A stretch of DNA of 64,000 bases, from assembly GCA_009911065.1 (NCBI GenBank), contig QXWR01000007.1, positions 1 through 64,000 on the forward strand, written 5' to 3'. This document shows, in pieces, positions 5,004 to 17,707 of the stretch (position 1 is the stretch's first letter; each line of letters starts with the position of its first letter). This DNA comes from Clostridiaceae bacterium (GTDB taxonomy: Bacteria; Bacillota; Clostridia; Lachnospirales; Lachnospiraceae). The position numbers were made by a program, and so were the translations under genes. The notes below the pieces were generated by a model that ran no database searches, had not been told where the DNA came from, and saw only the letters and a list, made by a program, of their open reading frames with translations.

Positions 5004-6524
5004 ATGGAGCAAAACACTTCCCGTAACAGCCAGATCATCAATGGAACTGCCTTGGGGTTTTCCATTGTCTTTCTGGTCTCCGCTTTCATTGCCGCCCTTT
5101 ACACCAAAGAATGGGGCAGCGTTTTTCTCAACTGGTACCACATTATGATCACGCCCTGCCCGCTTGTCACCGATTATCTGGAAATCGGCGGACTTGCCAG
5201 CGCCATGCTCAACGCCGGAGCCTGCGGCATGGCTTGTTTTTGTTTTATGCATTTTCTGAAAGGAGAATCCCGCGCCAACACACTGGCCGGATATTTTCTG
5301 GTGGTTGCCCACTGCTTTTACGGCCTGAATTTTCTCAACATGTGGCCCTGTTTTCTGGCGCCTTTTTTATATATGCGCTATAAAAATCTGGACTTTAAAA
5401 GCAATCTTCCTGTGTGTATGTTTGCCACCTCCTTCAGCCCCTTTATCAGCGAACTTTTATTCCGGTACACCCAGAGGGAAAACTATGCCTTTGGGATTCT
5501 TCAACTGAATATTTCCGGTATCCTTATGACGCTTCTATTCAGCCTTATGATCGGCTTTGTCATTCCTGCAATTCTGCCGGGAGCACATGCATGGCACAAA
5601 GGCTACAATCTTTATAACGGCGGACTTGCCTTTGGACTGTTTGGATTTTTTCTGTTTAATTTTCTCTTTGGCACCATGGGAATCTCCCCCCATGAGCCAG
5701 TAACCCGGTTCAATCCGGTGTATGAAGCATTTCACCGATCTTACAGGCTTTATGGCAATTTGTTCTTTCTCTTTATTTTTGCTGTCTGTATTGCCATTGG
5801 ATATAAATTAAACGGCGGTGGGTTTAAAGGATATGACCGGCTCATGAAGGATACCGGCCATTGCAGTGATTTTGCAGAAAAATATGGAATGCCTTTATGT
5901 CTTATGAATATAGGCTGTCATGGAGCCTTGTTTCTTCTTTACATAAACCTGATTATCTTTTTTACAGAAGGAGTCGGTTTTACTGGACCCACGATTGGGG
6001 TAGTGCTGGCTTCCCTGACTTTTACTGCCATGGGACAGCATCCAAAAAATGTCTGGCCGATTCTTTTTGGCTATCAGACTTTGTACTTTTTAACCATGTT
6101 TTTGTGCTTTACCGACGGCAGGGATTTGTCCTGGACATTGTCCTCCCAGGGCTATATTAATGGTGTTGCTTTTGCCACCGGACTTTGCCCCATTGTGGGG
6201 CGTTATGGCATTCGGGCGGGAGTCGCAGCCGGGTTTTTGTGCGCCTCTTTGTGTACTGCCACCAGTGCGCTTCACGGAGGTTTTGTGCTGTACAACGGAG
6301 GACTTTCCGCAGGCATCACGGCCCTGATTCTCCTTCCCATTCTGGAACATTACCAGCCAAAAGTCCGTGAGGAGATCAAGTCCCAGGCCAACAATCTTCA
6401 GGCAATGATTGCCCTGGTGGACGATCTGTCTGCGGAAGTCCGCCATGCTTATGAGGAAATTAACGCAGATGAGCCGGAAGCTCTTTTTCCCTCCCCGGAA
6501 AGCTTTGACATGGAAAAGGATTAA
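5004..6524 (+). CDS. DUF1576-type multi-pass membrane protein
   Basis: This 506-residue protein has about a dozen hydrophobic helices with glycine- and cysteine-rich segments (GGLASAMLNAGACGMA, LHGGFVLYNGGLSAG), and ends in an acidic cytoplasmic tail. The repeated NGGL/NGGF elements in the two halves suggest an internal duplication. I recognise it as the DUF1576 family of clostridial integral membrane proteins, whose function is unknown. The start follows GGGGGA with eight bases of spacing. It ends in a 4-base tail-to-tail overlap with the rRNA methyltransferase gene on the other strand. Confidence 0.75.
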   Translation: MEQNTSRNSQIINGTALGFSIVFLVSAFIAALYTKEWGSVFLNWYHIMITPCPLVTDYLEIGGLASAMLNAGACGMACFCFMHFLKGESRANTLAGYFLVVAHCFYGLNFLNMWPCFLAPFLYMRYKNLDFKSNLPVCMFATSFSPFISELLFRYTQRENYAFGILQLNISGILMTLLFSLMIGFVIPAILPGAHAWHKGYNLYNGGLAFGLFGFFLFNFLFGTMGISPHEPVTRFNPVYEAFHRSYRLYGNLFFLFIFAVCIAIGYKLNGGGFKGYDRLMKDTGHCSDFAEKYGMPLCLMNIGCHGALFLLYINLIIFFTEGVGFTGPTIGVVLASLTFTAMGQHPKNVWPILFGYQTLYFLTMFLCFTDGRDLSWTLSSQGYINGVAFATGLCPIVGRYGIRAGVAAGFLCASLCTATSALHGGFVLYNGGLSAGITALILLPILEHYQPKVREEIKSQANNLQAMIALVDDLSAEVRHAYEEINADEPEALFPSPESFDMEKD

Positions 6525-11071: not shown

Positions 11072-12922
11072 ATGCAGATCGCTTCCCTTTCCATCCGCAA
11101 TTTTAAATCCATCCAGAACCTGCAGATTTCAAATACAGGAAACGCTCTCATTTTAGTAGGAAAAAATAACACCGGAAAAACCGGTATCTTAAAGGCCATC
11201 CGGGCCGCCCTTGGGAATTACGCTGTAACAGAAGGAGACTTTAACGAGAAAAATCAGAACATAGAGATTTCCATGACTTTAAAAATCTCCCATTCTGATT
11301 TGTGCCAGTTTCACGTTTTGGGAATCGTCAGTCAGTACAAACGTTTTGACACCTGGAAAAAAGATTTTTCTTCCAAGCTCCCCTCCTTTGACGGGGAATC
11401 CCTGTCCTTTACCTGCACGATTCATCCCACCCGGGGCATCCGTTACAGCGATTGTTCTCATAAACACAACCGTTTCCTTCCCCAGGTGCTCCCCCGGCTG
11501 TATTTCATTGATACACAACGGCAGCTGACATCGTTTCAGGAAGATCTTCTTATGTTTCAGGAAGATCAGCAGTTGATTCGTCTTCGGTCCAACACCTGCA
11601 TGTTTCGTTCCTCTAAAATCTGTAACCAGTGCTTTAACTGCATCGGACTAATTAACCAAAAAAGACCAGAAGATCTCCACCTGTGCGAGACAGCAAAACT
11701 TCTGGAATACAAAATGTACCAGTTAAACCTCAGCGATTTCTCCAGAAGAGTCAATGAAAACTACCTAAAAAACGGCGGTATTGAAGAAATTTTTTACACT
11801 CTTACCTGCAATCCAGACACCCTTTTTTCCGTGACTGCCAACGCCATACGTCACGGGCAGCAACAGCCGGTTCCTGTGGAAAATTTAAGCAATGGCATGA
11901 AAAGCATTTACATGCTGTCTCTTCTGGAAACCTATATTGAAGGGGAAAAACAGATTCCCAGCATCATTATGGTAGAATACCCGGAACTGTTTCTTCACCC
12001 CTCGCTCCAGAAAACTGCCGGAGCAATTCTTTACCGGCTCTCCAAGAAAAATCAGGTGATTTTTTCCACTCACTCTCCTAACCTGATTGCCAATTTTACC
12101 AGCCGTCAGCTCTGTCAGGTGATCACCGATGACCATTGCCGCTGCGCAGTCCGGGACCATGCAGACATTGACCAGATCTTAGATGATTTGGGCTATGGAG
12201 CCAATGATCTTCTCAATGTAGGTTTTGTATTCATTGTAGAAGGAAAGCAGGACAAAAACCGCCTGCCTTTGCTTTTAAAAAAATATTATCCGGAACTTCA
12301 CCGCCCAGACGGACAGTTATCCCGGATTTCCATTCTCACCACCAACAGCTGCACCAACATCAAAACCTATGCCAATTTAAAATATATGAATCAGGTATAT
12401 CTCCAAGATCAGTTTCTCATGATTCGGGACGGCGACGGCAAAGACCCAAACAAACTAGCTGCCCAGCTTTGCCAGTACTATGATGAGAGAAATGCACAGG
12501 ATATTGACAAACTGCCTAAAGTTCGCCGCCGAAATGTACTGATTTTAAAATACTACTCTTTTGAAAACTACTTTTTAAACCCTAAAATTATGGCTCGTCT
12601 TGGAATCGTAGAAAGCGAAGAAGCTTTCTGGCAGACTCTCCTTTCCAAATGGAAGGAGTATCTCCACCGGCTGTCAAGCGGCCGCCGCCTGACAGCGCTT
12701 TTGGGAAAAGATTTTGAAACCATAAACGATCTTCAAAAACATTTTGAAGCGTTTAAAATCCACATCCGCGGCCATAACCTGTACGATATTTTTTACGGTC
12801 CCTACAAGCAAGAAGAAGCCGCTTTGCTGGACCAGTACATTGACTTGGCTCCCCGCCAGGATTTCCAGGACATTCTGGATGCTGTTGAAGCTTTTCCCTT
12901 TTTTGAAAGCCGAAAGCAGTAA
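11072..12922 (+). CDS. OLD-family ATPase/TOPRIM nuclease (616 aa)
   Basis: The N-terminal SMC/RecF-like ATPase has Walker A GKNNTGKT at residues 30-37, an NLSNGMKSIYML signature-like segment, and a Walker B-like SIIMVEYPELFLHPS followed by FSTHSPNLIANF. A C-terminal TOPRIM domain follows (FIVEGKQDKNRLP, then FLMIRDGDGKDPN). OLD proteins are DNA nucleases powered by ATP, many with anti-phage roles (class 2 forms Gabija with a UvrD helicase). No helicase lies beside this gene, so it fits the stand-alone class. A cysteine group C184-x2-C187-x2-C190 plus C205 may bind a metal. The start follows AAAGGAGATATGCC. Confidence 0.82.
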   Translation: MQIASLSIRNFKSIQNLQISNTGNALILVGKNNTGKTGILKAIRAALGNYAVTEGDFNEKNQNIEISMTLKISHSDLCQFHVLGIVSQYKRFDTWKKDFSSKLPSFDGESLSFTCTIHPTRGIRYSDCSHKHNRFLPQVLPRLYFIDTQRQLTSFQEDLLMFQEDQQLIRLRSNTCMFRSSKICNQCFNCIGLINQKRPEDLHLCETAKLLEYKMYQLNLSDFSRRVNENYLKNGGIEEIFYTLTCNPDTLFSVTANAIRHGQQQPVPVENLSNGMKSIYMLSLLETYIEGEKQIPSIIMVEYPELFLHPSLQKTAGAILYRLSKKNQVIFSTHSPNLIANFTSRQLCQVITDDHCRCAVRDHADIDQILDDLGYGANDLLNVGFVFIVEGKQDKNRLPLLLKKYYPELHRPDGQLSRISILTTNSCTNIKTYANLKYMNQVYLQDQFLMIRDGDGKDPNKLAAQLCQYYDERNAQDIDKLPKVRRRNVLILKYYSFENYFLNPKIMARLGIVESEEAFWQTLLSKWKEYLHRLSSGRRLTALLGKDFETINDLQKHFEAFKIHIRGHNLYDIFYGPYKQEEAALLDQYIDLAPRQDFQDILDAVEAFPFFESRKQ

Positions 12923-15655: not shown

Positions 15656-15717
15656 TTTAGACAAGATCATTATAATGGATTCAGCAGAAGAATGGAATAC
15701 CCTTTTCCTATTTTCCG

Positions 15718-15745
15718 TTGACTTTTTAATGTATTGGTTTATGAT
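15718..15745 (+). promoter_or_regulatory. Promoter of the EcoRV-like endonuclease gene
   Basis: TTGACT and TATGAT are separated by 16 bases and lie 35 bases before the start codon, which has an AAGGGGAA ribosome-binding site. No controller (C-protein) gene or C-box-like repeat was recognised. Confidence 0.55.
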
Positions 15746-15779
15746 TCTATATATAAAATAGTTTAAGGGGAATATACCA

Positions 15780-16595
15780 ATGAATGATTTTATTATGGAT
15801 GAATTTTACAAAGAAATGCAATATATTAACTTTGAAACCTATGGAATTTTAGATTCGTCTGGTATGATTCATACCTTAGGTACCGACTCTAAAATTATAG
15901 GTCGGATTTTTGAAATGTTTACTCAGCCTATTCTTGAAAAGATCGCTAAAAGACATAATATGATTTTAACAACTCCTGCATCTCAAACCGTTTATCCTGA
16001 TTTCATAATGATGAACCAAATAAATCCCAAAGGAAAAATCGCCATAGATATCAAAACAACTTATATTGAATCTGACCATTCTACCATAAAATTCACTCTT
16101 GGTTCTTTTGGTTCTTACATGCGAAATAACACCAAAAATATAGAATATAAATATACGGACTATTCCAAACATTATGTGATAGGATTTGTTTATAAACGAA
16201 ATGGAAGGGCGCAAGAAAGCAAAGTTTATGAATACAAAGATCGAGACAAAATAATCTTTCCCTTTTATGATGTAAAATATTTTATTCAGGAAAAATATAA
16301 AATTGCCGGAGACAAACCAAGCTCCGGAAACACAGAAAATATAGGTTCTTTTACTACTAAAAATTTGGATGATTTGAAAGATGGAAAAGGTCCCTTTCGT
16401 GAATTAGGCCCTGATGCATTTGATTTATACTGGAAATACTATCCCAAATACAGAACTACAAATAAACCATATACATCCTTAATGGAATTTGTTAAATGGT
16501 TTCCAAAACAAAATCCTTCTTCCGTCACTTTGCTGCACACTTACAATTACAATCAAACTTTATGCAGAATACAAACTTATGCAAAAAAACTTTAA
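15780..16595 (+). CDS. EcoRV-like type II restriction endonuclease
   Basis: The 271-residue protein is recognisably homologous to EcoRV over most of its length. Y72-P73-D74, D90 and K92 (AIDIKTTY) are the PD...D-x-K catalytic residues at exactly the EcoRV numbers, and E45 is also conserved. Other shared stretches are LGTDSK, FTLGSF with RNNTKNI, IAGD, and the recognition-loop sequence SSGNTENIGS (EcoRV has GSGNTTNIGS). This suggests cleavage of GATATC or a close variant. The protein is about 25 residues longer than EcoRV at the C-terminus. The gene is AT-rich compared with its neighbours, pointing to acquisition. The cognate methylase is convergent. Confidence 0.93.
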   Translation: MNDFIMDEFYKEMQYINFETYGILDSSGMIHTLGTDSKIIGRIFEMFTQPILEKIAKRHNMILTTPASQTVYPDFIMMNQINPKGKIAIDIKTTYIESDHSTIKFTLGSFGSYMRNNTKNIEYKYTDYSKHYVIGFVYKRNGRAQESKVYEYKDRDKIIFPFYDVKYFIQEKYKIAGDKPSSGNTENIGSFTTKNLDDLKDGKGPFRELGPDAFDLYWKYYPKYRTTNKPYTSLMEFVKWFPKQNPSSVTLLHTYNYNQTLCRIQTYAKKL

Positions 16596-16610
16596 CTACT
16601 AGATCCACAT

Positions 16611-16636
16611 AACTGCGATGAATTTTCATCGCAGTT
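16611..16636. terminator. Bidirectional hairpin between restriction and methylase genes
   Basis: A 12-bp perfect stem, AACTGCGATGAA / TTCATCGCAGTT, with a 2-base loop lies between the two convergent genes, 16 bases after the endonuclease stop and 18 before the methylase stop. T runs are short, so the strength is uncertain. Confidence 0.6.
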
Positions 16637-16653
16637 TCAGACAAAATGGCATA

Positions 16654-17565
16654 TTAATATTCCATAAGTGATTCAAATAAATGAAATTGATGTCCATTAC
16701 GAATGTTTCTCAAAGGAACCTTTGACGCATCATAATTTGTTAATAAAGCTTCCATCATAAAATTCCTATTTTCTTCTTTTCCACCAATATGATAGTAGTG
16801 TTCTTTATTTAGTTTATAACATCCTTTCCATATGGTATCAATATATGGATTCTTTCTATATTTGTTCTCATCCCATGTAGACACCATAAATTTTGCACCG
16901 GATTGAAACAGAGCATCCCGTAAAGCAATTTCATGGTCCTCATCCCAGCTGTCATAATAATCCACATGACGCCCGATATAAGGAGGATCGCAATAGATAA
17001 AATCTTCTGTTCCGGCTTTTGCAATGGTTTCTTCAAAAGAACAGCATACAAATACCCAATCATTTTCTGAAAAAACTGTCTCCAACCGCTTCACTTGATT
17101 TACAATCTTTGTTACATAAGCTTTTGCAAATCGCTGCGGTTTATGGCCATATGGGACATTAAATTTATAATATCGGTTAAATCTTATCATTCCATTAAAA
17201 CAGCTTCGGTTAAGAAACAAAAAGTCTAAAGGATCATGATGTTGATTAAAACGCTCTCTTATTGCATAATAATGTTCATCATCTTTCTCTGCCAAGATTG
17301 CACCTTCACATTTAAGAAACTCTTTTACAATGCCTGATGTAATTTGCCCCGATTTAATCCCATTATAAAACTCAATCACATAAGGATTCGTGTCCGAAAA
17401 TACTGCCCTGTGAGGCGCCAGATTCAATCCCACTACCCCAGATCCCATAAATGGTTCATACCATACAGAATTATTGGTCAAATATACATGATCGGAAATC
17501 ATATTCACTATTTTCGTTTTAATTCCTTGAATTTTTATTGGAGGAACATAGACTTTACTTACCAT
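16654..17565 (-). CDS. Adenine-N6 DNA methyltransferase, M.EcoRV-like (D12 class)
   Basis: Motif X/I sequences PPIKIQGIKTKIV and YEPFMGSGVVGLNLAP are followed by FLFLNRSCFNGMIRFN and catalytic motif IV DPPY in YCDPPYIGRHVDYYDSW. All are closely similar to M.EcoRV and the wider Dam/DpnM alpha group. It should methylate adenine (by homology, the first A of GATATC) to protect host DNA from the convergent EcoRV-like nuclease. I chose the start at MVSKVYVPP, with AAAGGA six bases upstream; an ATG two codons earlier is too close to that site. GC content is low, as in the endonuclease gene. Confidence 0.92.
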   Translation of the reverse strand: MVSKVYVPPIKIQGIKTKIVNMISDHVYLTNNSVWYEPFMGSGVVGLNLAPHRAVFSDTNPYVIEFYNGIKSGQITSGIVKEFLKCEGAILAEKDDEHYYAIRERFNQHHDPLDFLFLNRSCFNGMIRFNRYYKFNVPYGHKPQRFAKAYVTKIVNQVKRLETVFSENDWVFVCCSFEETIAKAGTEDFIYCDPPYIGRHVDYYDSWDEDHEIALRDALFQSGAKFMVSTWDENKYRKNPYIDTIWKGCYKLNKEHYYHIGGKEENRNFMMEALLTNYDASKVPLRNIRNGHQFHLFESLMEY

Positions 17566-17697
17566 ATTCATTCCTTTCTGAAATCAAATTTAAAACTAAT
17601 TTGATTATTTGTTCCCTCTTTTTCCTCCAAATAATTTTACCGCGTTTTTCCCATAAAGTCAACGAAACCTTCACCAGCTGATTACGTGGATTTTAAA

Positions 17698-17707
17698 TGT
17701 GCAAATA
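17698..17707. promoter_or_regulatory. Putative AraC operator half-site TGTGCAAATA
   Basis: This 10-mer is identical to two direct repeats upstream of the solute-binding-protein gene at 23249 and 23270. It lies about 40 bases before the -35 of the nucleotidyltransferase promoter. Sharing between two units of the same glycan locus suggests binding by the AraC regulator encoded between them. Confidence 0.5.

Follow-up and report, generated by a model that had tools for sequence, protein, structure and literature searches.

The EcoRV restriction-modification system of Escherichia coli plasmid pLG13 (NC_005019) pairs a PD-(D/E)xK endonuclease carrying E45, D74, D90, and K92 with a methyltransferase of the D12 class; its two genes are divergent, and a helix-turn-helix (HTH) gene lies upstream of the endonuclease gene. 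We take E45 to be a member of the catalytic set. D74, D90, and K92 are given as the EcoRV catalytic residues in PMC4081073, which also describes EcoRV mutants in base-contact residues as almost inactive. With respect to gene arrangement, PMC5333194 treats EcoRV as the model for divergent systems, with overlapping promoters, and AhdI as the model for convergent ones; both have a C protein. Two groups of EcoRV-type systems bear on the locus described here, which lies in a 64,000-nt window (the whole stretch of DNA analyzed). The first is a mostly convergent branch (L049, L030, L031, L033, L036, and others) whose endonucleases are 57 to 79% identical to that of the window and whose genes converge in 18 of 19 tree members; 14 of these 19 carry another methylase lineage, unlike the window. 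The second consists of tandem systems (L050, L060, L055, and others, mostly in Lachnospiraceae-like genomes) that, unlike the window, have the methylase and endonuclease genes in that order on one strand. Their methylases belong to the same clade as that of the window (66 to 75% identical), but their endonucleases are only 44 to 52% identical.

The pair in the window is an EcoRV-type type II restriction-modification system, as an earlier note made from the letters of this stretch had proposed; the profile matches, the sequence, the predicted fold, and the catalytic residues all agree. We consider it likely that the system is an acquired and probably working type IIP system of the EcoRV kind, with GATATC as its likely target, and that it is a natural chimera of endonuclease and methylase. 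The endonuclease gene R, taken from the open reading frame listing (positions 15780 to 16595, forward strand, 271 aa), matches the Pfam family PF09233 (E = 2.7e-52; 178.1 bits against a cutoff of 25; residues 19 to 237) and EcoRV in the PDB (E = 1.2e-52), while NCBIfam gave no match to it up to E = 0.1. An AlphaFold2 model of R built with 39 relatives in the alignment has a mean pLDDT of 93.5. The best Foldseek match of this model has E = 7.7e-24 (TM 0.79/0.87), and all 39 chains matched at E ≤ 0.001 are EcoRV, 35 of them by title and four chains of 1bua and 1bsu via a PDB sequence search. The methylase gene M, from the same listing (16654 to 17571, reverse strand, 305 aa), encodes an M.EcoRV-type N6-adenine methyltransferase of the D12 class, matching PF02086 (D12; 4.4e-42), TIGR00571 (dam; 3.3e-52), and PADLOC MTase_II (1.8e-116). 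The comparison with EcoRV and M.EcoRV that the note had suggested gave 41% identity for R over 239 aligned positions, with about 25 extra C-terminal residues relative to EcoRV, and 54% for M over 277 aa. M is closely M.EcoRV-like, with the motifs that the note had named located at residues 39 (EPFMGSG) and 195 (DPPY). The E values of the R match to PF09233 and the M match to MTase_II exclude chance resemblance.

R and M are convergent and complete, with intact frames and a gap of 58 bp between the genes. Translation of M likely begins at the third codon, an ATG at 17565 that lies six bases past AGAAAGGA; the resulting 303-aa protein starts like its relatives (MVEKVYVPP or MIDKVYVPP). The limits 15718 to 17565 given for the island in the earlier note fit this start and a promoter-like TTGACT at 15718. 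The note had described both genes as AT rich, and their G+C contents are indeed 0.305 (R) and 0.340 (M) against 0.451 for the whole window; at 0.322, the stretch from 15718 to 17571 lies below every one of 622 windows of equal length (1,854 bp, step 100 bp). The pair sits, as noted, between cbiK (CbiK, E = 7.3e-78) and the GNB/LNB locus (lacto-N-biose phosphorylase, E = 1.1e-214). About 2.9 kb to the left of R, positions 11072 to 12922 encode a 616-aa AAA ATPase resembling OLD proteins (PADLOC Old, 1.6e-30; TOPRIM model PF20469, E = 0.057, below its cutoff), another likely defense gene.

These two genes appear to have been acquired horizontally, as the note had suspected; this is supported by their composition and by the fact that 22 of the 24 genus genomes lack the pair. 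The carriers are the source genome, a 5.37-Mb draft with contamination of 6.23, and G172, whose R is only about 30 to 35% identical. PF09233 proteins are encoded by six of 397 genomes of the taxonomic family. In a scan of one genome per species across 84,980 species, at least 594 pattern matches were found, at least 585 of which encode a relative, and the best 80 of these (79 loci) were used here. Among the matches listed, the closest R proteins come from uncultured Lachnospiraceae (79, 76, and 75% identical), and others at 58 to 72% come from Chloroflexi, Victivallales, Treponema, Fibrobacter, and Arcanobacterium; such a spread argues for extensive transfer, a reading to be taken with care given how many of these records are metagenome bins. 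When the flanks were compared with the 24 genus genomes, mostly drafts in many contigs, and with stretches of eight, the junction of cbiK with the nucleotidyltransferase gene was found in none. Homologues of cbiK reach about 15563, and homology to relatives resumes to the right of the pair at 17687 to 17702; no insertion site can be defined, since cbiK and the nucleotidyltransferase gene are never neighbors in those stretches. EcoRV-type endonucleases also occur on viral contigs. The R of IMG/VR contig L020 equals that of Arcanobacterium ihumii (L045) in HMM score and length, and 13 IMG/VR contigs (L113 to L122 and L124 to L126) and HGTV-1 (L028) encode 197-aa endonucleases; no match to an M profile lies closer than 1.5 kb, although some of these stretches end nearby. 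In L105 (4938 to 5773) and L034 (4953 to 5822), the R frame is split in two beside a methylase, which is shortened in L034; these are apparently decayed endonucleases.

No same-strand open reading frame of at least 50 aa that could encode an HTH controller ends within 500 bp upstream of R, whereas such a gene lies upstream of R in EcoRV, in Geobacillus, Leuconostoc, and Acinetobacter relatives, and, directly upstream, in two systems of the R branch to which the window belongs (L036 and L020). Two promoter-like sites, each with 10 of 12 consensus matches and identified by consensus only in a region where 16 such sites were found against 11.2 expected, lie upstream of R (TTGACT-16-TATGAT, 15718 to 15745, forward strand) and of M (TTGACT-17-TAAAAT, 17634 to 17662, reverse strand). 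A 13-nt inverted repeat (92%) joins the two ends of the locus (15713 to 15725 and 17655 to 17667), each copy around a TTGACT. Between the stop codons of R and M, a perfect inverted repeat, AACTGCGATGAA-TT-TTCATCGCAGTT (16611 to 16636; 12-nt arms, 100% identical, with a 2-nt spacer), is a candidate two-way terminator that is absent from the terminator-scan list. R and M would be transcribed toward each other, each from its own promoter and with no C gene beside them. Two members of the mostly convergent branch have a different gene where the HTH gene stands in other systems: an HhH-GPD DNA glycosylase-like gene found in the Pfam run (L049, 4275 to 4985; L031, 4346 to 4984), which ends 12 to 13 bp before R. 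BLAST places the same gene near EcoRV-type genes in L052 and L053 (both 5868 to 6506) and, in part, in L029 (2185 to 2511). A different gene, with copies related to one another, recurs beside such systems in L049 (7815 to 8522), L037 (4173 to 4811), L038 (328 to 984), and L051 (1582 to 2217); its Pfam match is Pua-like (PF24405), just above the cutoff in L049 and L038 and just below it in L037.

Residues E45, D74, D90, and K92 of R carry the same numbers as in EcoRV (Met = 1), as the earlier note had read them, and are invariant in a 15-row alignment. The SSGNTEN core that it had pointed out is also present: the recognition loop reads PSSGNTEN where EcoRV has AGSGNTTN, so that S183, G184, N185, and T186 (EcoRV numbering) are kept and two residues differ, G182S and T187E. 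In R's own numbering, S181, S182, G183, N184, T185, and E186 correspond to EcoRV 182 to 187. In the Q-loop, Q69 is unchanged and the Q68S replacement given in the note is joined by N70T and H71V. The fetched loci held 145 R hits; for a loop census we used 107 rows, including the EcoRV plasmid copy, after dropping identical proteins and those shorter than 190 aa. Conservation of SGNT and D-x-K in this set is inflated by the retrieval patterns, which contained them, but position 182 lies outside the patterns. Residue 68 is serine in 30 and residue 187 is glutamate in 45 of the 107 nonidentical rows. Both are fixed in the window's own branch (22 of 22 rows), which likewise shares its residues at EcoRV positions 68, 70, 186, and 187 throughout (22 of 22). 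Position 182 is glycine in 105 rows, alanine in one, and serine in the window alone, and G182S is therefore found in 1 of 22 rows of the branch, where glycine is otherwise the rule. Two of the three differences that the note had listed, S68 and E187, are therefore branch features by this census, and G182S is private.

Glycine 182 presumably belongs among the base-contact residues of EcoRV, and a private change there could mean that R is weakened or dead and that the locus now serves mainly as a GATATC methylase beside a relic endonuclease. The serine codon of the window, AGC, is one base away from a glycine codon, and the near inactivity of laboratory base-contact mutants cited above points the same way. 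We nevertheless regard this reading as unlikely, because the catalytic residues, Q69, N185, and T186 are intact and because dN relative to L049, which among the matches listed is nearest to the window in both genes, is comparable in R (0.156) and M (0.145); dS is saturated and gives no value. The preferred reading is still of a functional nuclease, in which a homodimer of R would most likely bend GATATC and cut it, presumably to blunt ends, with E45, D74, D90, and K92, and M would methylate an adenine of that site, so that the chromosome is protected. G182S would then be a natural variant, open to testing, in the loop where base-contact mutants made in the laboratory were almost inactive according to PMC4081073.

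Depletion of GATATC in the source genome bears on both activity and specificity. At least six GATATC sites had been counted in the window; there are nine, including all six listed, where shuffles lead one to expect 14.2 ± 3.6. One of them lies inside R (16047 to 16052, forward strand, from sequence and site scan), spelled by the codons for D90 and I91. It was considered as a self-regulating site and dropped: these codons read GATATA in 26, GATATT in 13, and GATATC in only 3 distinct R proteins, and the spelling looks like ordinary codon choice. The whole genome has 713 GATATC sites in 5.37 Mb (133/Mb), G172, the other genus carrier, has 61/Mb, and G381 has 53/Mb; 21 members of the genus, excluding the two carriers and G418, range from 269 to 804/Mb. 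The control palindrome GTATAC is not depleted (160/Mb in the source genome, 142 to 220/Mb in others of the genus). In 164 kb of the source genome (the window plus L184 to L188), GATATC occurs 23 times against 48.9 expected from its subwords (observed/expected, 0.47) and GTATAC 29 times against 26.7 (1.09), whereas in 160 kb pooled from four relatives without R, GATATC is at expectation (78 against 79.8; 0.98). A single 20-kb stretch, L184 (C261, 64001 to 84000), has eight GATATC sites, against one or two in each of the other four; this segment was perhaps recently acquired.

GATATC is favored as the target of R by this roughly twofold depletion, as support and not as proof. In the 164-kb sample, GATATC ranks no higher than 22nd among the 64 palindromes ordered by depletion. 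Palindrome avoidance is general in this genome, since GAATTC (1 against 51.3 expected), GTTAAC (0 against 12.8), and GAGCTC (0 against 17.1) are avoided much more strongly than GATATC; their extreme avoidance suggests other restriction systems, past or present. At genus level, the two carriers hold ranks 2 and 3 of 24 in GATATC poverty (P = 0.011). A third GATATC-poor member of the genus, G418 (83% complete), has 40 sites in 2.4 Mb (17/Mb), and none in a 100-kb sample (L191 to L195) against 20.1 expected; no EcoRV-type R or M was detected in it. Across the 397 family genomes, the eight with the least GATATC include three of the six carriers; another carrier ranks 20th from the poor end, and the remaining two, G182 and G016, have unexceptional densities (453 and 561/Mb). 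Five of those eight poorest genomes are without a detected R. The corresponding enrichments (three of six in the lowest 8, P = 1e-4; four of six in the lowest 20, P = 7e-5) involve thresholds chosen post hoc, ranks read by eye, rounded genome sizes, and no GC correction, and assigning the last ranks to the two carriers without depletion gives p = 0.099. Depletion also weighs against a dead R, though it could predate G182S.

The earlier note had left the specificity as GATATC or a relaxed variant. The first part is favored by the depletion; the second receives no support from T187E and Q68S, because both are the rule in the branch, and G182S alone is left as its basis. Because G182S lies within the recognition loop, R might recognize a changed or relaxed site in place of GATATC, but we find this highly improbable. 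N185, T186, and Q69 are kept, S68 and E187 are common to the whole branch, the same methylase lineage partners R in the GATATC-poor genomes G172 and G381, and an R that cut outside the sites of M would be expected to damage its host.

Apart from the seeming origin of R and M in two branches, little sets the pair apart within what is a common family. We compared the two genes in quick trees with SH-aLRT support (79 R and 77 M rows), from which 31 hand-listed loci (duplicates, near-duplicates, and the split R of L034), any locus lacking an M close by, R proteins shorter than 200 aa, and M proteins shorter than 240 aa were left out. In the R tree, the window falls in a clade of 19 systems (support, 100), all convergent except L041, which is tandem with M before R. 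In the M tree, the window, L030, L031, L037, and L049 stand apart from the methylases of the other 14 R-clade members and join the methylases of the tandem systems, G172 (L003), and G381 (L002) in a different clade (support, 99). The R proteins of G172 and G381 are different again. That the methylases of the 19 R-clade systems form one group is rejected by the M data (lnL -93, AU p 0.0007), and the R data reject one group for the 19 R partners of the M clade (lnL -326, AU p 0.0004). By alignment and trees, the lineages of R and M disagree, a point that, like the lack of an HTH gene beside R, goes beyond the earlier note.

That the discordance is a tree artifact, with both genes inherited together, is the alternative to which we give least credence. 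Support in these quick trees is limited to SH-aLRT values, the R set has long branches, and the free R tree sets L037 apart from the other four systems of its methylase group. Against this, the R data accept the five as a clade (p 0.65), in a tree that scores 8.3 better than the free one, the likelihood differences given above are large, and plain identities to the window agree with the discordance: L033, L035, L036, and L043 have R at 66 to 70% and M at 47 to 50%, while L060 and L050 have R at 48 to 51% and M at 74 to 75%. The M of the window shares about 48% identity with the other methylase type of the R clade.

The reading that we favor is that R comes from the widespread, mostly convergent branch and that its methylase was replaced by one from a different EcoRV-type branch that is frequent in Lachnospiraceae-like genomes. 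Replacement of M in the lineage of the window would be the simpler direction, since the first branches of the R clade as drawn (L021 with L047, L020, and L042; the root was not inferred) carry the other methylase type. In these trees, one methylase lineage is found with three or more lineages of endonuclease, a pattern that looks like exchange of methylases within one specificity. Such exchange would imply a common site for these endonucleases, since each methylase has to shield DNA from the R that it accompanies, and the GATATC poverty of G172 and G381 suggests that this site is GATATC.

A possible intermediate is seen in L049 (4998 to 7791) and L037 (5001 to 7774), where two EcoRV-type endonucleases in a row face a single M, with R1 of 273 and 268 aa and a longer R2 of 336 and 334 aa, respectively. 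R2 can be grouped with R of the tandem systems without penalty (p 0.45, lnL -1.3), so an R2 that brought M with it is allowed, though not demonstrated. A search of the window for remnants of R2 or of the L049 glycosylase gene gave nothing better than E = 0.6 except R itself, and among 392 genomes of the order, eight match R2 at E ≤ 1e-30, none past residue 271 of 336. We therefore put forward only tentatively that the system arose through free swapping of methylases between EcoRV-type systems sharing GATATC, in which one methylase lineage serves three or more endonuclease lineages, and that the route may have been a two-endonuclease stage in which M arrived with R2 and R2 was then lost.

As a restriction enzyme, R adds little beyond EcoRV. 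A literature search recognized no paper on a Lachnospiraceae EcoRV-type system or on exchange of EcoRV-type methylases, by which we do not claim absence from print. The interest of the locus lies in the natural experiment that it represents, an endonuclease whose protecting partner seems to have been swapped for that of another branch. If confirmed, it would mean that an endonuclease and a methylase sharing one specificity can be interchanged as units in nature, and it would offer a route by which new restriction-modification pairs may form without killing the host.
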